From: Oscillospiraceae bacterium
GTDB lineage: Bacteria; Bacillota; Clostridia; Oscillospirales; CAG-272
Reading direction: 5' to 3'
Length of the DNA stretch: 39,776 nucleotides
Assembly (NCBI GenBank): GCA_015063895.1
Contig: SVTG01000016.1
Span: 1 to 39,776 of the forward strand
A program made the position numbers and the translations under genes. The notes below the pieces were generated by a model that saw only the letters and a program-made list of their open reading frames with translations, ran no database searches and was not told where the DNA came from. Positions 30,090-39,776 of this stretch are shown here, piece after piece; the stretch's first letter is position 1, and each line of letters begins with the position of its first letter.

Positions 30090-33000
30090 TTAAAATTCGA
30101 TCATATCGTCGCCAAGGATATCCTCTGCGGTATCATTGGTGGGATCGTCCTCGGGCAGCGGTACGGGGTCGGGCAGCTCGTAGGTCGAGTTGCCGCGCCA
30201 GAGGATCAGGCCCGCGTTGTTCGTGCCGCCCTCGTAGGTAATATCACCCGAGGCCGACTTGTGGTAAATACCCGTGCCCCAGCCGAAGGTCGTGCCCGCA
30301 GACCCGGGATACTCGTTGGTAAGGCCTGCAATAAACTGATCGGCATAGGTCTTAAGCTCTGCGTCACTCAGAGGCGTATCGCCCTCACAAACATTCAGCG
30401 GGAGGCCTGCAACACCGTCCTTTGTCAGCGTCATCGTGGGATTGTAGTGATACTTATTCCCTACAGTTTCATCCAGCGGCTGACCGGCAAAGATATACAG
30501 CCATCTGGTGTTCTTCAGCCACAAAATGTTCTGCATAATGTAGGAGGAGGTGCTGGTTTCGTTGGCAAGGCTCTGCACGTTGTTGGCAGAGTGCGACCAC
30601 AAAATGATCTGTGCATCGATGCGGTAATACGACGCCGCCTCAATGCCGTTGCCGCCGTGGTGCGAGGAAAGCACCATATCGGACTTGAGATAATCGCCCC
30701 AAAGCGCACGCATCTGCTGCGAGCCACGTGCCTGAAGGTCGCCGGGGTTCATCAGGCTGATGGCATTTTTACCGACGAGGATGTTGCCGTTACCGTCGGT
30801 TTCGTGCGCCGTCAGACGCAGGACCGTAGAGGTGTTATTGAAGTAAAGCATAGCCCAAGGATGAATATCCTCATGCGTATACATGACCTCAAATTCAAGG
30901 TTGCCGATAAAGAACTGCTGGCCCGTGTGCACCTTATAATACTGCACGTAGGTGCCGTCGTAATTCTTATACCAGTTATCCGACTCCAGGAGGTTCGCGA
31001 TCGTGGGATTGGGATCCATCGAGTTGTAGATCTCGTCGTTAGAGGGGGTGTTGGCAATGAGCCTTGTCACCTTAGCCTTGGGATTCCATAGGTTGGACGA
31101 ACCGCTCTGACAGTAGGTCTTAATGAACTTATCCATCATGCCGTAGTGGTCGCCGTGGCCGTGCGAAAGGAGCCATGTGATCTCAATGGGCTTCGAGTTC
31201 GTGGGTGCCGTGCCGCCGTGCGCGTCCTTGTAAAGATCGGTCAGAAGGTTGTAAAGACGCTCCGCATCGGTCGCGTTACAGCCACCGCCGCCGCCATCAA
31301 GCACCACGAAGGTACCGTCCTCCAGCGTATACACGTAGCAGAAGCCGAAGTTACGTTTGTTCTCGTCATTAAGATCGAAGGAAACCTCCATCGAGGTCAG
31401 CTTGGTCGTGGTCAGCTTGCCCGTAGCGGGTACGCGCAGCATGCTCTCGTCAAGCAGCTGATGGATATAGGACTTGTCGTTGGCGGTCCTTGCCGCGATC
31501 ACGCGCAGCGTGGGGGTAAACATCTTTTCAAGCGTTTCGGTATCGTTGAGCTGCTCAAGATCCGCATCGGCATAGGCGTGCAGCATCACGTGCAGCATAA
31601 TACCCGTGGTACTGTTTACGTAGGTAACGAAGTAATTACCCTTGATCGAGCGCTGAGTCATATACACGGTAAAGCCGCGAGACTCAAGGAGTCTGCAGTA
31701 GTTGTAGTAATCGCCGAAGCCCGCGTTCTTGTAATAATACTCGATCGCGTCGTTATCCACGTTCACAACGCCCGAAAGCTGAATGCCTGCGGGACGGGGG
31801 CAAAGCGTGGTATCGGTCACCAGCTTCTTGACTTCCTCGGCCACGTTCCCCGTGCCCGTAGCGCCCGTCACGCTGTCAAAGGCACCCGTAAAGCCGTCAA
31901 TGCCGTACTTCTCAAACTCATAGTCAACGGGCACGAAGTAGCCGTTGTCGGTTGCAAAATCGGCAAGGTCTGCTTCAAGCAGCGCCTTGGCAAGACGGAG
32001 GGTCGAATCGTCAAACGCGGTGATCACCACGTTACCGTCCTTGATGGTATAGCCGTAATAGCCTGCATCGCGTCCGACCAGCGCGGTCTGCATCGCGTAA
32101 TCGGTAAGACCGATCTGGATCGTGCCCACGTTCGTGGCAAGATTGTCAGGCAGATAGGTATAGTTCATGCCGCTGCCGTCCAGCTGATTGCCCAGCAGGA
32201 TCGCCGCTACCACGGGATAGTCAACGTAGAATTGCTCGTTGCCCTCCTGATTATACAGGTGCGTATAAGCGCCGTACATAAAGTAGATCTTAGAATAGTT
32301 CTTGTCACCGCCACCGGTATAGGGCTGCCAGATGTTGCCGTCACGGTGCCAGGAGAACACGAAGGGGGTGTCACTGTTCAGTGGCAGCATTTCCACATTG
32401 GAGGAAACGATCTCGCTGATAATGACCGTCTTATTGGCTTCCATATCGGCCAACACCGTATTGCTGAATACGGAAAGTGCCTGCATCGTCAAGGCATTCG
32501 TGGTACCGACGATCACGATCTTACCGTTGATCACGCCGATATAGTAGCCCTCACCCTCGATCTCGGAGAGCGCCTTCGCGGTTTCGGTCGTACCCGTGTT
32601 ACCCACGAGGATAGCCGCGCCCGAGGCGGTGTAGCCAAGAGAGGTGAGCTTGTTCTTCAGCGTGGTGTTAGCGGCCGTCTTGAGGTTAGCGCTGGCATCG
32701 CCGCCCACGGTGATCGTCGTGGAGGGCGTCACGGTCGACACGTCATAGGTGTGCTCGTAGCCGCAATAGCTCTTCAGGATCTCCTGCTCCGTCTCGTCAA
32801 AGGCACTGTAGCCGTTGTGATAGTAGAGCGAGGGGGACATATGCTCCTCATCGGGCAGAATCACGTAGGAGGTATAGGCCGCCTTGGTCACCGCTGCCAT
32901 AGAGTCGGTGTTGTAGGCTGCATCGTAATTGCTGTAGTAATAGGTGCTACCGACCTTCACGTAGGATACTGCGGCAAGCACGCGCGTATAGTTGGTGGTC

Positions 33001-35558
33001 TTGAGGTTGATCAGCGTGCCGCTGAAGGTAATACTGCCGTCGGGGAGCGTAAGAACGCTGTATTTTGCGGGAATATCCACGTAAGTGGTGCCGTAGGCAG
33101 GATTCTTCGAGGCAAGGGTGTTGAGCTTTGCATGTGTGAAGGCACCTGCAGCCGCCACGTAATCGGCGGGTGCGATCAGCGTACCGTAGGTAGCGCCCTC
33201 GGGCAAGGTCGCAGCGATCGCCGCAGAGATCACGGAGGTAAAGCGAATGCCCTCGTAATCCTCAGTCACCGAAACGCCTGCCTGCTCGTTCATCGTGGGC
33301 GAATACGTGGTGGTGGTATTGGCCTTGGCAAAATAGCAGTAATAATTCTCACCGCCGTATTGGCAAACGATGCTGTCCGCGCTCATACGCACGTCGTTCT
33401 CGGTGCCACCCGCATCAATAAAGTAGCCCTGCAGATAACGCGAGAGCAGCAGTGCACCGTTCACAGTCACGCGTGCCGAGCCCACGGTGGTATCGATCAT
33501 TTGCGTATTGCCTACGCGGTTATCGATAAAGGTACCGCCGTTCAGAGCGACCGTAGCCGAGGCGACCTGATACATCTCGGTGGGATCGTAATACTGCCCC
33601 GTGCCGGTCTGCGGAATGACCGCGACACCCGCACGAATGAGAGCACCGCCCTTTACCGCGTCGGAATCGTTGAGAATAAAGGTACCGTTGTTAACCGTCA
33701 GACTTCCCTGCCCCTCGGGGATCACGAAGTTGATAAGGCAAGCGGAATTCGCAGTATGCGTACCGCCGATAATGGTGACGTTACCCTTAGCAAGGCTAAA
33801 GCCGACGGCGTTGTCGTAGGTGGTCACGGTAGCCTTGCTGAAAAGTGTAAAGGAAAGCGTAGCAGTGGAAGCCGTCGTACGGAAGCCCGTCGCGCTGTTA
33901 TAGACCGAAAACGCACCGTTACTGACAGACATGCTGGCGCCTGCACTAAGATCAGCGATCGCAGCCGTATCGTACGCCGCAAAGGTACCTGCGGCAATCG
34001 TGATTTTCACGCCGTCAGCGTTGGCGCGGATCAACTGACCTGCACCGGTTTTAATAAAGGTCGCGCCCGTGCCGCTATACGAGGTGCCGTTCACGGACAG
34101 CGAGCCGCTCTTGATCTCCACGGTGCCGGCCGGGAGGTAATCAACGTGCATACCGATGATAGCACCCGTGCTGCTGGTGCCGCCCAGCTTGAACGTACCG
34201 CCGTAGATCACGGCCTTACCTGCTGCGTGGAAGTGAAGCACCGCACCCGCGCTGATATTTGCCGCCCCTACGTGCGTGCCGTCAAAATTACCGTCGAATA
34301 TGTAAGCAACGGCAGCCGCACTTTGAATATCAATGATCTTGGAATTGGCCTGGCCGGGGTTATGGTAGAAATTACCGCCCGTAAAGACCGTCGTGCCCGA
34401 AACCGTAACGGCACGGAAGCCGTAAAAGCTACCGCCCGAAATAACGGCGTCGGTACAGCTCGTACCCACCTTCAGCGCCTGATTACTGTGGCCGCCCATA
34501 AAGGTGCCGCCGCTGACACGCAGCGTGCCCTTGCCGTTATAGTAAGCGCCCACGCAGCACTCATAGCCATTCGAATTAGCATAGTAGCCCGTCGCAGCGA
34601 GATCGATCTCTGCCGCGCTGCTCAGCGTATCCACGTAGGTGAAGAAGCCGCCCGTGATCGTGAGATACGGCGCCGAATCTCCGTCGTTGACTGCATAGAT
34701 CGTATAGGCACTCTCGTGCAGCACGTAAAATTTACCGTCGTTGATGGTGATATTACCACCGTAGAAATGCGCGGCGTTGCAGGATTTCTTGCTCCCCGCC
34801 GTGAAAGTACCGCCGTTGATCGTGAGCACGCCGGTGGTGCTGTTACAATAGACCGCGTGGCCGCCATTAGCGTTGGTACACGTCGTGGAATCATACGTAA
34901 ACGTACCGCCGTTGACGGTCACCGTGGTGCAGTATCTGGCCAAGCGCAGCACGAAGGCAGTTTGCCCGGAGGCCAGCTTGGTGCCGTTTTTGAACGTACC
35001 GCCGTTGATAACGAGGCGTGAATGCAGCGACGGGGTACCGCCCGTTGAGCCCGAGCTGCTTTCATACGTACCGACCGAACCCGTAAAGCTACCGTTATCG
35101 ATCTGCAGATAGGCAGACCCGTCTACCGTCATCGCATTGGCCGCGCCCTGCGTGGTGCCCTCGGACAAAAACGTGCCGCTCTCAACGTACACCGCCGTAT
35201 TGGCACCCGACACCATCACGGCGTTGTTGGCCTGACCGTATACCTTGATCGTATTGATCGTCACGGTACCCGCATTGATACGGAGGCTACCGTCCGTCAA
35301 CGTCAGCGTCACAGAGGACGAGGAGGCCGTCAGCGTATACGTCTTATTGACGTCCAACACGATATCACCCGAAAACGTAGCGCTTTCGGTCATCGTGATC
35401 GTGCCCCCTGCACTGACAGCTGTCACCGCTTCGGGGAGCGTGGCATACGTATTGCCACCCGTGCTGAACGGGTTCGCGGCAGAGGCCGCTACGGCCGTGA
35501 CAACGAACAGGGCTGCCACCAAAACCGCAAAAAGCAATACACGCAAGTATTTTTTCAT
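30090..35558 (-). CDS. Giant secreted protein: beta-helix repeats plus C-terminal metallo-beta-lactamase-fold domain
   Basis: 1822 residues. Start ATG at 35558, with AGGAGA six bases upstream; the frame opens 31 codons earlier without support. Sec signal MKKYLRVLLFAVLV... with likely cleavage at ASA-A (~28), and no lipobox, so it should be released. Residues ~60-720 hold about 19 repeats of the type [LV]xINGGTF, a right-handed beta-helix pattern. Residues ~755-910 form a separate domain (EGIRFTSVISAA..., YGTLIAPADY). Residues ~960-1060 hold AILVGNTGTTETAKALSEIEG and IVIVGTTNALT, as in the lipoproteins at the left edge. Residues ~1390-1690 are metallo-beta-lactamase-like: FVVLDGGGGG, LSHGHGDHYG (~1464) and SSHHGGNGI. 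The tail is acidic with no sortase motif. Role unknown; surface polymer binding and cleavage is a guess. Confidence 0.85.
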   Translation of the reverse strand: MKKYLRVLLFAVLVAALFVVTAVAASAANPFSTGGNTYATLPEAVTAVSAGGTITMTESATFSGDIVLDVNKTYTLTASSSSVTLTLTDGSLRINAGTVTINTIKVYGQANNAVMVSGANTAVYVESGTFLSEGTTQGAANAMTVDGSAYLQIDNGSFTGSVGTYESSSGSTGGTPSLHSRLVINGGTFKNGTKLASGQTAFVLRLARYCTTVTVNGGTFTYDSTTCTNANGGHAVYCNSTTGVLTINGGTFTAGSKKSCNAAHFYGGNITINDGKFYVLHESAYTIYAVNDGDSAPYLTITGGFFTYVDTLSSAAEIDLAATGYYANSNGYECCVGAYYNGKGTLRVSGGTFMGGHSNQALKVGTSCTDAVISGGSFYGFRAVTVSGTTVFTGGNFYHNPGQANSKIIDIQSAAAVAYIFDGNFDGTHVGAANISAGAVLHFHAAGKAVIYGGTFKLGGTSSTGAIIGMHVDYLPAGTVEIKSGSLSVNGTSYSGTGATFIKTGAGQLIRANADGVKITIAAGTFAAYDTAAIADLSAGASMSVSNGAFSVYNSATGFRTTASTATLSFTLFSKATVTTYDNAVGFSLAKGNVTIIGGTHTANSACLINFVIPEGQGSLTVNNGTFILNDSDAVKGGALIRAGVAVIPQTGTGQYYDPTEMYQVASATVALNGGTFIDNRVGNTQMIDTTVGSARVTVNGALLLSRYLQGYFIDAGGTENDVRMSADSIVCQYGGENYYCYFAKANTTTTYSPTMNEQAGVSVTEDYEGIRFTSVISAAIAATLPEGATYGTLIAPADYVAAAGAFTHAKLNTLASKNPAYGTTYVDIPAKYSVLTLPDGSITFSGTLINLKTTNYTRVLAAVSYVKVGSTYYYSNYDAAYNTDSMAAVTKAAYTSYVILPDEEHMSPSLYYHNGYSAFDETEQEILKSYCGYEHTYDVSTVTPSTTITVGGDASANLKTAANTTLKNKLTSLGYTASGAAILVGNTGTTETAKALSEIEGEGYYIGVINGKIVIVGTTNALTMQALSVFSNTVLADMEANKTVIISEIVSSNVEMLPLNSDTPFVFSWHRDGNIWQPYTGGGDKNYSKIYFMYGAYTHLYNQEGNEQFYVDYPVVAAILLGNQLDGSGMNYTYLPDNLATNVGTIQIGLTDYAMQTALVGRDAGYYGYTIKDGNVVITAFDDSTLRLAKALLEADLADFATDNGYFVPVDYEFEKYGIDGFTGAFDSVTGATGTGNVAEEVKKLVTDTTLCPRPAGIQLSGVVNVDNDAIEYYYKNAGFGDYYNYCRLLESRGFTVYMTQRSIKGNYFVTYVNSTTGIMLHVMLHAYADADLEQLNDTETLEKMFTPTLRVIAARTANDKSYIHQLLDESMLRVPATGKLTTTKLTSMEVSFDLNDENKRNFGFCYVYTLEDGTFVVLDGGGGGCNATDAERLYNLLTDLYKDAHGGTAPTNSKPIEITWLLSHGHGDHYGMMDKFIKTYCQSGSSNLWNPKAKVTRLIANTPSNDEIYNSMDPNPTIANLLESDNWYKNYDGTYVQYYKVHTGQQFFIGNLEFEVMYTHEDIHPWAMLYFNNTSTVLRLTAHETDGNGNILVGKNAISLMNPGDLQARGSQQMRALWGDYLKSDMVLSSHHGGNGIEAASYYRIDAQIILWSHSANNVQSLANETSTSSYIMQNILWLKNTRWLYIFAGQPLDETVGNKYHYNPTMTLTKDGVAGLPLNVCEGDTPLSDAELKTYADQFIAGLTNEYPGSAGTTFGWGTGIYHKSASGDITYEGGTNNAGLILWRGNSTYELPDPVPLPEDDPTNDTAEDILGDDMIEF

Positions 35559-35612
35559 ATGTGTTCTCCTTCCGCACGCGCCACGCACGTGCATATAAAA
35601 ATATGCATGAAC

Positions 35613-35641
35613 AATATAAAATAGTAGAATTAAAAAGTCAA
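35613..35641 (-). promoter_or_regulatory. Promoter of the giant secreted protein gene
   Basis: Minus strand TTGACT (35641-35636), 17-bp spacer, TATATT (35618-35613). The leader holds GCATAT-TTTT-ATATGC and a GC-rich imperfect hairpin before the ribosome site. Confidence 0.65.
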
Positions 35642-35782
35642 GTATATACAATACAATTTCTCTATAATTACCAAAAAATTTGTTAGCCTATCCATACAAA
35701 TGCAAAAATATCTTGCCCGAGCGTGCAAAAGCCCGAAGAAAAATTTGGGCAATTTGACGGTTTTTTTGGCACCCCGTCTTAC

Positions 35783-36390: not shown

Positions 36391-36419
36391 ATTATACCAA
36401 AAAGGGCGGGGTAAGTCAA
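36391..36419 (-). promoter_or_regulatory. Promoter of the small membrane protein gene, overlapping the spoVAF stop
   Basis: Minus strand TTGACT (36419-36414), 17-bp spacer ending TGG, TATAAT (36396-36391). The -35 covers the spoVAF stop codon, and no terminator lies between. Confidence 0.8.
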
Positions 36420-37816
36420 GATTGTTTTTTACGGCGCACAAAGAGCGAAAGCAGCGCCTTTGGCGCAAACGGAATCAAGGGATACAGATAGCTGTGCGTA
36501 CCGTTCAGCGTCCTGTTGGATACGATCAGCACGACGATCAGCAAAACGCCCGCAAGGAACCCCCACAAATTAAAGAAGGCTGTCAGGGTCAGCAGCAGGA
36601 TTCGCATAAATTTCAAGGCATAGCCAAGCTCAAAGCTGGTCTGCGTAAAGTTGGCGATCGCCACAAAGGCCATATATAAGATGACCTCGGGGATCAGCCA
36701 ACCGACCGAAACCGCAAAATCACCCAGTATGAGGCCCCCTACAACAGAAAGCGAATTTGCCAGCATATCGGGTGTGTTCATAGAGGCCATGCGCAGCCCG
36801 TCAATGACAAATTCAGTGAGCAGAAGCTGCAAATATATGGGTAGCTTTCCCGTTTCTGTGGGCAGCGCAAACGCCAGCCACCCGGGCACCATCTCGGGAT
36901 TCAGAACGCCGAGAAACCACAGGGGCGTTAAAAAGAGCGTCAGCCAGAACACCGCGTGGCGCACAAAGCGCAGATACGTGCCCGTGAGAGGCGGCAAGTA
37001 AAAATCGCTGCTCTCCTGCAAAAAATCAAAAATACCTGTGGGCAGGAGCATCGCGGAGGGCGAGTTATCGATCAGCACCACGACACTCCCCTCCAGCAAA
37101 TGGGCGGCCGCCACGTCAGGGCGCTCGGTATAACGGATCTTTGGAAAAGGGTTATACCAACGGCTTTTGATCAGTGTTTCCGCCAAGGATTCGTGCCCCA
37201 TGGTCAGCGCATCGGTCGTAGCGCTTGCCAGCTTGGCCTTCACGTGCTTGACGAGCCGCGCATCGGCTCTGCCCTGCATATAGCACAAAACGATATCGGT
37301 CTTCGAGGCCTTTCCCACCGTCACGTAATGCATCGTCAGGGCCGTGTCGCGAATACGGCGGCGGATCAACGCAGTGTTAAACACCAGCGTTTCCACAAAC
37401 CCGTCGCGCGGGCCGCGCATCACGCGGTCGTTTTCGGGCTCTGCCGTTTCACGCGCAGGATACGTACGTGCATCGATGACCACGCCCTCGACACCAAAGG
37501 TGCTGCCAAAGAGCACCGTCGCGCCCGAGAGCACCATTTGCATCAGCAGTGCCGCATCATCGCTGACCTCGCTCTCTACGTAAGGCATATTCGCCTCTAT
37601 AAAATCGGTCGCCGTGGGCGGCAGCTTTTTCAGCGACAGCAAATACATAAACAGCTTTTGCATCGCCCCGTCCTTGATGAGCCCATCGATATAAAAAAGC
37701 GTGATCTCATCTTCCCCGATGCGCAGCACCTTCTTTAAGACGTCAAAATTTTCACGCACGCGCAATGCCGCCGTAAATGCGGCCACGTTTTCGCTGTATT
37801 TTTCCCCTAATTGCAT
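36416..37816 (-). CDS. spoVAF: SpoVAF/GerA-family spore germination membrane protein
   Basis: 466 residues. GerA-family A subunits sit in the spore inner membrane and take part in germination; SpoVAF is the variant linked to the SpoVA dipicolinate channel. The N-terminal soluble domain (~1-270) has the family order VLRIGEDEITLFYIDGLIKDG, a VLFGS- strand, RTYPARETAEPENDRVMRGPR-type motif (GPRDGFVETL) and TDIVLCYMQGRAD. The membrane half has about five segments and ends with THSYLYPLIPFAP, a SpoVAF-like tail. I chose ATG 37816, with GGAGG six bases upstream; the frame is open 16 codons further. A SigG-type promoter precedes it, so expression should be in the forespore. No spoVA genes are next to it. 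Confidence 0.9.
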   Translation of the reverse strand: MQLGEKYSENVAAFTAALRVRENFDVLKKVLRIGEDEITLFYIDGLIKDGAMQKLFMYLLSLKKLPPTATDFIEANMPYVESEVSDDAALLMQMVLSGATVLFGSTFGVEGVVIDARTYPARETAEPENDRVMRGPRDGFVETLVFNTALIRRRIRDTALTMHYVTVGKASKTDIVLCYMQGRADARLVKHVKAKLASATTDALTMGHESLAETLIKSRWYNPFPKIRYTERPDVAAAHLLEGSVVVLIDNSPSAMLLPTGIFDFLQESSDFYLPPLTGTYLRFVRHAVFWLTLFLTPLWFLGVLNPEMVPGWLAFALPTETGKLPIYLQLLLTEFVIDGLRMASMNTPDMLANSLSVVGGLILGDFAVSVGWLIPEVILYMAFVAIANFTQTSFELGYALKFMRILLLTLTAFFNLWGFLAGVLLIVVLIVSNRTLNGTHSYLYPLIPFAPKALLSLFVRRKKQS

Positions 37817-37836
37817 ACCTATCCTCCGTTTTTTTG

Positions 37837-37866
37837 TAGTATGCGTCAAAAACGGGGGCAGCATAC
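37837..37866 (-). promoter_or_regulatory. SigG-type (forespore) promoter of spoVAF
   Basis: Minus strand GTATG (37866-37862), 18-bp spacer, CATACTA (37843-37837). This matches the Bacillus SigG consensus (GyATr, 17-18 bp, CATnhTA) at every defined base. The leader is about 14 nt and leads straight into GGAGG. Confidence 0.75.
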
Positions 37867-39234: not shown

Positions 39235-39325
39235 GACAAAAGGACAACTTCACTGCGAATTCGTTCAGTTTTTACGTTATTTTGGACAGGCGCGCCCACA
39301 TAAGGTATGGAGGAGGTGAAGATAT

Positions 39326-39670
39326 ATGCTATCTTATCTGATCTCGCTGATCGCGGGGGCGTTTCATTTACTGCTGGGGCTTGGAAATCCGGGCAAATTC
39401 CCCCCGCCCCTCACTGCCGCCGAGGAGCACGCCGCGTTTCTTGCCGCACGGCAGGGCGACAGCGCCGCACGCGAGCGCCTGATCCTGCACAATCTGCGCC
39501 TGGTCGCGCACATCGTACGCAAGTATTACGGCACGGCCAAAAACGCCGAGGATCTGGTGTCGATCGGCACCATTGGCCTCGTCAAGGCGACCGATACCTT
39601 TAACCCCACCAACGGCGCACGCTTTGCCACCTACGCCGCCAAATGCATTCAAAATGCTATCCTATCATAA
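39326..39670 (+). pseudogene. sigK: sigK N-terminal half (pro-sigma-K), interrupted by an intervening element
   Basis: 114 residues. Sigma-K is the late mother-cell sporulation sigma factor. The first ~20 residues are a hydrophobic pro-sequence (MLSYLISLIAGAFHLLLG), as in SpoIVCB, removed in known cases by SpoIVFB. Region 1.2/2 follows: HNLRLVAHIVRKYYG, NAEDLVSIGTIGLVKATDTF and FATYAAKCIQNAIL, the core-binding and -10-reading part. It then stops (S, TAA) in the segment equivalent to CIENEILM, where Bacillus and Clostridioides skin elements interrupt the gene. Regions 3-4 are absent. This is not ordinary decay: in known cases the halves are joined by excision in the mother cell. GGAGGTGA lies 7 bases before the ATG. 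Confidence 0.9.
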
Positions 39671-39776
39671 CGGACTTTTTTGGAGCATATGACGCAGATA
39701 AAGTTCCATATGATCAAAAATGGCGTGTATTCCAGCAATTAGGCGAGCAAACATACTTGATGGTACAAAACATATC
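39663..39776. mobile_element. Left end of a skin-type sigK intervening element (continues past the window)
   Basis: From just inside the last sigK codons the sequence becomes visibly more AT-rich (about 40% GC by eye) than the GC-rich sigK part. Two frames stay open to the edge: plus-strand GAYDADKVPYDQKWRVFQQL..., and a minus-strand frame ending HAIFDHMELYLRHMLQKS-PL with its stop at 39665. I recognise neither. Known skin elements carry a large serine recombinase (SpoIVCA/SpoIVCA-like) next to this junction, facing sigK; the minus-strand frame could be its end, which is a guess. Confidence 0.7.

Follow-up and report, generated by a model that had tools for sequence, protein, structure and literature searches.

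A skin-type element probably splits sigK in an Oscillospiraceae genome and has close relatives across genera

We place at about 0.8 the probability that the window analysed here, a 39,776-nucleotide contig of an Oscillospiraceae bacterium (SVTG01000016.1, assembly GCA_015063895.1), ends inside the attL of a skin-type element in sigK, that a recombinase drives excision of this element during sporulation, and that the element family moves between genera. The break in sigK is a real left border of such an element, and probably a functional one. Programmed rearrangement of sigK has been described for Bacillus and Clostridioides, and phages integrated in sigK for Clostridium and Alicyclobacillus (PMC6957869, PMC5025042, PMC13141910). 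The kind of element is known. What is new is a family that is small or probably conjugative, bears cargo, holds its recombinase at the other border and appears to spread between genera. In a literature search outside preprints and most subscription papers, no paper was found that joined Oscillospiraceae, sigK, sporulation and insertion, and no report of sigK-intervening elements in this family stood among the matches listed. A query on intervening element, sigK and metagenome returned C. difficile papers and none on Oscillospiraceae.

The sigK frame is left at codon 110

The 5′ part of sigK lies at 39326–39654 (+) and comprises codons 1–110, of which the last is represented by its first two bases. 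The ATG at 39326 and the ribosome binding site GGAGG at 39312–39316 (+) were read directly from the sequence. Residues 1–113 match positions 1–114 of the 227 positions of NCBIfam TIGR02846 (spore_sigmaK, E 1.9e-36), including the N-terminal pro-sequence region. The score of 125.8 bits is below the whole-protein cut-off of 298.65, as expected for half a protein. The frame ends as KCIQN-AILS-stop, with the stop codon at 39668–39670 (+) already within the element; sigK itself is left at the Asn110 codon (39653–39654, +), whose AA is the crossover dinucleotide deduced from attL and attR of relatives. The left end of the intervening element, which we call type A and which is shared with relatives, runs from 39655 to the contig end at 39776 (+). 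Behind the junction the G+C content is 37.4%, against 61.0% in the sigK part, and only 3.4% of 1974 stretches of the same size in the window are as low. The initial annotation had described sigK as intact, with ribosome site and pro-sequence, up to CIQNAIL and then AT-rich DNA, and this description stands. It had put the break at the contig end, which needs correction to 39653–39655, with 122 bp of the element present.

A possible sigK promoter at 39277–39306 (+) consists of TTATTTT, 15 bases and CATAAGGT. It is weak, since it agrees with the sigma-E consensus at 10 of 15 bases, a score reached by 40% of random stretches over a similar span. A SpoIIID-like TTGGACAGGC at 39282–39291 (+) overlaps it, and a second SpoIIID-like match lies at 39240. 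Both were scored with what we take to be the sigma-E and SpoIIID consensus sequences. In C. difficile, the TTA of sigK promoter P1 is placed 15 bp before the -10 box (PMC3789822).

We compared the window with 20 other genomes of its genus. A match to the N-terminal part of sigK was present in 18 of them and absent from G003 and G014. All 18 have a sigK open frame of at least 227 aa. The nearest relative, G004, has a whole sigK with 96% identity across the part common to both, and its sequence at this place is KCIQNEILMHFR.

The same junction recurs in relatives

When named genomes were scanned with the sigK 5′ half, by protein similarity, eight of the best 80 of 153 loci left sigK through CIQNAIL at the same codon (L080, L086, L088, L094, L098, L108, L114 and L123). 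In the other 72, sigK runs through. At the DNA level the left-junction pattern was found in 16 of 395 family genomes, belonging to 14 of 71 genera. The pattern of the uninterrupted site occurred in 284 of the 395 genomes and in none of these 16, and reversed-pattern controls gave zero. Incomplete drafts and variants are among the 111 genomes that lack the uninterrupted pattern. Three genomes (G109, G135 and G399) show the uninterrupted pattern twice each, as two copies or mixed bins. Relatives of the window's tail, at E 1e-5 or better, are present in 13 of 395 family genomes. The exact left-end tail pattern had no match in viral contigs, and the 44-aa tail frame gave only chance-level matches (best E about 1) in Pfam, PHROGs and phages.

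The contig end might instead be a chimeric join or a private accident in an organism whose sigK is whole. The contig does stop 122 bp past the junction, the sigK 3′ half is absent from its own assembly, and ten of 18 distinct motif-bearing genomes have contigs that stop 70–139 bp past the core. Against this, 16 of 395 genomes whose sigK sequences differ share exactly this junction and lack an uninterrupted site, the remaining eight motif-bearing loci continue for at least 650 bp into the element, and two elements are complete on one contig. We regard an artefact or accident as hardly credible. Chance truncation and chimeric joining were rejected on the recurrence in the 16 family genomes and in eight of the best 80 loci. 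The short contigs would be the usual break at DNA common to several co-assembled species. A repeat within the window's own genome was also considered as the cause of the contig end and rejected, the left-end DNA being single-copy there (other matches at E 0.2 or worse).

Relatives carry both junctions and a large serine recombinase

The initial annotation had called the break the left junction of an element within sigK, as the recurrent junction and the complete elements of relatives now support. It had proposed that a large serine recombinase, a sigK 3′ half in the same orientation and a short shared core would lie on the far side. All three were found in relatives; the window's own assembly holds neither the 3′ half nor a large recombinase. 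In six of the eight split-locus genomes (G021, G024, G025, G026, G027 and G028) the sigK 3′ half lies directly behind the end of the recombinase frame; in G021, G024 and G026 the contig holds only the last 106–121 bp of that frame. Two complete elements are each on a single contig: L123, from isolate SIG711 (7,266 bp), and L223, from G193 (6,135 bp). In both, sigK 5′, recombinase and sigK 3′ have one orientation, and the large serine recombinase runs into the right junction, with the sigK 3′ half next to it. When the flanks were joined at the AA common to both, the sigK frame was open through the joint in nine of nine genomes tried. The joined open stretches have 220–240 codons and start up to 115 codons before the joint; two joints came from one contig and seven from two contigs of the same genome. 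The type A right ends of G021, G024, G026 and G315 are near-identical and join to an open sigK 3′ half.

Further loci show other arrangements. G022 (G022:C5; L130, L193) has a split sigK and also a complete 236-aa sigK frame on another contig, from a second copy or a mixed bin. In G023 (G023:C49; L145, L194) the sigK 3′ part is only a 38-residue match in a 63-aa frame, owing to a mixed bin, a second copy or decay. Given these two genomes, some element copies may be dead or some bins mixed. In G014, of the window's genus, a related but diverged recombinase end runs into sigK 3′ at a contig start (L231, G014:C96:1-433); its last 103 bp are 67% identical to G315.

The recombinase has Resolvase, Recombinase and zinc-ribbon domains, which make it a large serine recombinase, and its best PHROGs match is the integrase family phrog_95. 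The sigK 3′ part directly follows the gene in 36 of 74 recombinase loci and not in 38; the 74 include repeats of the same places, and for 13 of the 38 the sequence past the gene is shorter than 330 bp. In a midpoint-rooted tree of 52 rows, 17 sigK-followed rows (14 distinct places) form one clade with support 100/100. Its sister (support 100/94) consists of L154 and L155, two viral contigs; L155 has no sigK behind the recombinase, and L154 ends there. Three IMG/VR contigs (L150, L151 and L153) carry recombinases of the sigK-adjoining clade next to sigK. Close to the sigK-abutting recombinase of G210, a frame at L240:2301-3101 (-) looks by eye like an IS3-type transposase.

The window's own genome

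The assembly to which the window belongs is a draft of 36 contigs and 1.86 Mb, 93.2% complete. No sigK 3′ half was found in it, the sole responders being frames that best match sigE and sigG, and no protein matched the large-recombinase family PF07508. The sole PF00239 match of this genome is a resolvase-domain protein in a 236-aa frame on contig C8 (G000:C8:35478-35918). The initial annotation had held that lack of a sigK C-terminal half anywhere in the genome would speak against a skin element, and taken literally this assembly lacks one. We ascribe the lack to the incomplete draft because six of eight left-junction relatives do have the C-terminal half behind the recombinase end. The genome of the window probably still has the right half. 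As its own assembly holds neither the sigK 3′ half nor a large recombinase, excision there is an inference.

The genome has frames whose best families are sigE, sigF and sigG, and the window encodes a spore-germination-type protein at 36419–37864; several sporulation-family matches are a little or well below curated cut-offs. By gene content the organism looks like a spore former. These observations bear on the reading that the insertion is real but dead, with sigK a pseudogene and late sporulation lost in the lineage. The missing recombinase and sigK 3′ half of the own assembly would fit such a loss, as would the 38 residues kept in G023. On the other side, the 5′ part of sigK is intact with its start and ribosome site, relatives of sigE, sigF, sigG and spore germination genes are kept, and in G021, G024, G026 and G315 an open sigK 3′ half adjoins the near-identical type A right end. 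We give a dead insertion a small chance of being right and continue with a functional element.

The recombination site

Among rows selected by motif, the sequence of attL is CARAATGCTAT and that of attR is GATAGC, R, AA and then Y-GAR; the split sites of the best 80 loci were not picked by motif. The base after AA in attR is the host's own, T in most genomes and C in G315, G025 and G200. In these three AAC hosts the host C stays in attR, and the element's T is in attL. Because the host base after AA is kept in attR, the exchanged dinucleotide is AA, with which the Asn codon begins. The core shared by both junctions in relatives is thus AA, or AATG in AAT hosts. The deduced attP has, by eye, the arms GGATAGC and GCTATCC around AA.

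The site in the window, AAT GA (Asn-Glu), fits the AATGA of B. subtilis, for which we assumed a position on the sigma-K protein. The B. subtilis skin recombines at AATGA (PMC10745906), and the skin elements of B. subtilis and C. difficile use different sigK regions (PMC6957869). The window's junction had been likened to the skin site of both species. The likeness holds for B. subtilis and fails for C. difficile (PMC6957869, PMC10745906).

Element ends, cargo and conjugation-type genes

Over the first 68 bp of the element, the window, L080, L086, L094, L098, L114 and L242 do not differ at all, and L108 matches at 62 of 68 positions. The sigK 5′ DNA of hosts with identical left ends is 59–75% identical; pairs were made among eight of 12 prepared loci. 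The last 105 bp are 99–100% identical among L132, L133, L134 and L236, where sigK 3′ is 59–65% identical. Since the element ends are near-identical while the host sigK DNA has diverged, these comparisons argue for recent horizontal transfer of the elements.

Several elements carry cargo, located to the element side of their junctions. L223 encodes a GH39-type glycosidase and a metallo-beta-lactamase-fold protein. L123 encodes a sialate O-acetylesterase-type protein, two GDSL-type proteins (one below the Pfam cut-off) and an 809-aa protein without a family. The element of G027, on two contigs (L088 and L192), has a partial carbohydrate phosphorylase, a 4-alpha-glucanotransferase, a PTS permease and an endonuclease/phosphatase-fold protein. 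The window itself contains, at 30090–35651 (-), a 1853-codon frame of a repetitive surface-protein type, the C-terminal part of which resembles, by eye, the metallo-beta-lactamase-fold protein of L223.

Type A, the type of the window, was read in G315. Its left end has an HTH frame, a small gene and a frame of no recognised kind. At its right end, beyond the recombinase, are a 346-aa gene, a 210-aa gene and a pilin-like gene, the product of which has no Pfam match. The same three genes stand in the same order in MT836543 (60, 48 and 64% identity), a 9.8 kb record that is unverified and in which the second and third genes flank one of AbiEii type. They do so too in the Vescimonas plasmid pMM35_02 (25, 29 and 50% identity), where the next genes encode a PrgI-family protein and a protein annotated as VirD4-like conjugal transfer protein. 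Because the three-gene order of G315 is that of MT836543 and pMM35_02, with conjugation-type genes then following, type A is probably a conjugative element. Against this, the contig of G315 ends before the position of the conjugation-type genes, the pilin-like product has no Pfam match, pMM35_02 is typed non-mobilizable, and a search of 17 genomes for a T4SS/conjugation-neighbour protein, which had no positive control, gave no match.

The initial annotation had expected a prophage-like element, which the genes read do not bear out: apart from cargo and genes of conjugation type, they comprise HTH regulators and a single DnaC-like fragment. No virion gene (capsid, terminase or tail) was found in the stretches scanned, type A interiors being unassembled, and the HTH gene and 346-aa gene had no relative in viral contigs. 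Type A could nevertheless be a prophage within a skin-type family. In the related element of G230, a fragment like the helicase loader DnaC lies close to the left end and suggests this, as do the IMG/VR contigs with the sigK-adjoining recombinase and the fact that earlier known gene-intervening elements mostly have phage genes (PMC5595907). The gene order shared with MT836543 and pMM35_02, and the lack of virion genes in the stretches read, argue the other way. We consider a prophage somewhat unlikely and a conjugative type A the better reading.

A small gene near attL

A small gene of about 56–66 codons lies near attL, on the strand opposite to sigK, in L242, L123, L088, L223 and L202. In L238 it is upstream of the recombinase. 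Homologues are found in L264 and in L154 and L155 of the sister recombinase group, and eight aligned proteins have invariant H, C and K at three columns. The copies scanned matched no Pfam, NCBIfam or PHROG family, there was no convincing sequence match in the PDB, and the phage collection held no relative. In viral contigs the L242 gene had no relative, the L155 gene matched only its own contig, and the L154 gene matched its own contig and L264. AlphaFold2, given five of the protein sequences with the copy from the L155 contig first, predicted two helices with a mean pLDDT of 90.6.

Start codons were placed by alignment. The gene seems to begin at ATT in L238:322 (-) and L223:2183 (-), with a good ribosome site ahead. 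Apparent starts behind a good ribosome site are ATC in L202:266 (+) and ATA in L123:5048 (-). L238 has an in-frame stop three codons upstream and no other start nearby; other possible starts exist in L202 and L123. The homologues start at ATG in L262 and L264 and at TTG in L263.

A sigma-E-like promoter lies 39–45 bases before the small-gene start in five of six elements. Its scores, out of 15, were 14 in L242 and L223, 13 in L202, 12 in L123 and 11 in L238; L088 scored 10 and has no such promoter. The consensus was again the one we take to be that of sigma-E. Among 20,000 random stretches a score of 14 or more occurred in 0.04%, 13 in 0.4%, 12 in 2.4%, 11 in 12.6% and 10 in 40%; before 1,708 other frames the same scores occurred in 0.35%, 0.76%, 6.0%, 22.9% and 59%. 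As L242, L202 and L223 are related copies, the scores are not independent; of the six -35/-10 matches, five either are imperfect or belong to related copies. In C. difficile, CD1234 has an ATA motif and is under sigma-E control (PMC3789822). The small gene is likely to encode a recombination directionality factor, for which its linkage to the sigK-adjoining recombinase clade and to the sister group also makes it a candidate, and its size, place and promoter liken it to CD1234 and Skr, whose counterpart it would be.

Recombinase and HTH frames at the deduced type A attP

The recombinase frame of type A and the HTH frame at its left end share one reading phase through the deduced attP. The window's open frame at 39655–39776 (+), CYPIITDFFGAYD...MVQNI, is identical to the start of this left-end frame, which has 211 codons in L197/L242. 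In G315 the frame continues as a protein with two HTH stretches, and HTH_3 and HTH_19 were found in a 176-aa part of it. L123, L088 and L223 are without the HTH part. The linker between the att site and the HTH part is open in all variants seen. It shows weak constraint, with 10, 10 and 21 changes at the first, second and third codon positions in two comparisons (window/L108 and L108/L202), a number too small to be decisive.

Integration would part the recombinase from the HTH frame, and the recombinase stop would then be supplied by the host, as the TGA of AAT GAR. In AAC hosts it would be moved downstream after integration. These features suggest an idea that we hold tentatively and think rather doubtful as a whole. 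In it, a family of conjugative elements passes from genus to genus among gut Oscillospiraceae, uses sigK as its attachment site and leaves in the doomed mother cell on a sigma-E signal, and the type A attP, within a recombinase-HTH fusion frame, is an integration-state switch. If true, integration would cut a two-HTH regulator off the recombinase and excision would rejoin them, so that the switch is written in a DNA joint, and the elements would park in a gene needed only in the doomed mother cell.

Discussion

In the reading that we prefer, site-specific recombination at the codons for Asn110 and Glu111 would have brought the element into sigK. The site would be recognised by the element's own large serine recombinase, whose gene would lie by the distant attR junction and point the same way as sigK. 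During growth, and also in the forespore, sigK would stay split and the element would be inherited. During sporulation the recombinase would join attL with attR, the element would leave as a circle, and a continuous pro-sigma-K frame would be made. The element family would move between genera, the type A branch probably as a conjugative element.

Compared with the B. subtilis skin, the split sigK with a pro-sequence, the large serine recombinase within the element (SpoIVCA) and recombination at AATGA are alike, and the directionality factor Skr (64 aa) has a candidate counterpart here (PMC6957869, PMC10745906). Unlike that skin, which has 48 kb and mostly phage genes, the elements are 6–7 kb in the two complete cases, with no virion genes seen (PMC6957869, PMC10745906). 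The recombinase is at the sigK 5′ fragment in the B. subtilis skin and in skinCd, whereas here it is at the 3′ fragment (PMC10745906, PMC5025042). The skinCd of C. difficile also pairs a large serine recombinase (CD1231) with a small gene of the element that sigma-E controls (CD1234, 72 aa; PMC5025042); the candidate gene here has a sigma-E-like promoter in five of six elements. In contrast, skinCd uses another sigK region (PMC6957869), and its host has a sigK without a pro-sequence (PMC5025042), while the pro-sequence region is present here.

The gin element in gerE of Bacillus cereus ATCC10987 similarly combines a serine recombinase and a directionality factor (GirC, GirX) with a lack of phage genes, but its target is gerE, it has 28.6 kb and it carries three recombinase genes (PMC5595907). 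Integration in sigK is shared with the phages of Alicyclobacillus (MMB025) and of C. perfringens (phiS63, as cited there); unlike MMB025, an infectious phage of 105 kb, the elements here show no virion genes in what was read (PMC13141910).

Split sigK is now seen in uncultured animal-gut Oscillospiraceae, in a small form that has no virion genes in the two complete cases; the elements bear sugar-metabolism cargo, and members of different genera share identical element ends. It becomes testable whether a split sigK is kept for the timing of sporulation or because selfish DNA can land there safely. The same holds for the way in which new pairs of recombinase and directionality factor come under sigma-E. 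The sigK-sited recombinase clade and its conserved small partner gene offer a ready site-specific integrase set for laboratory work.
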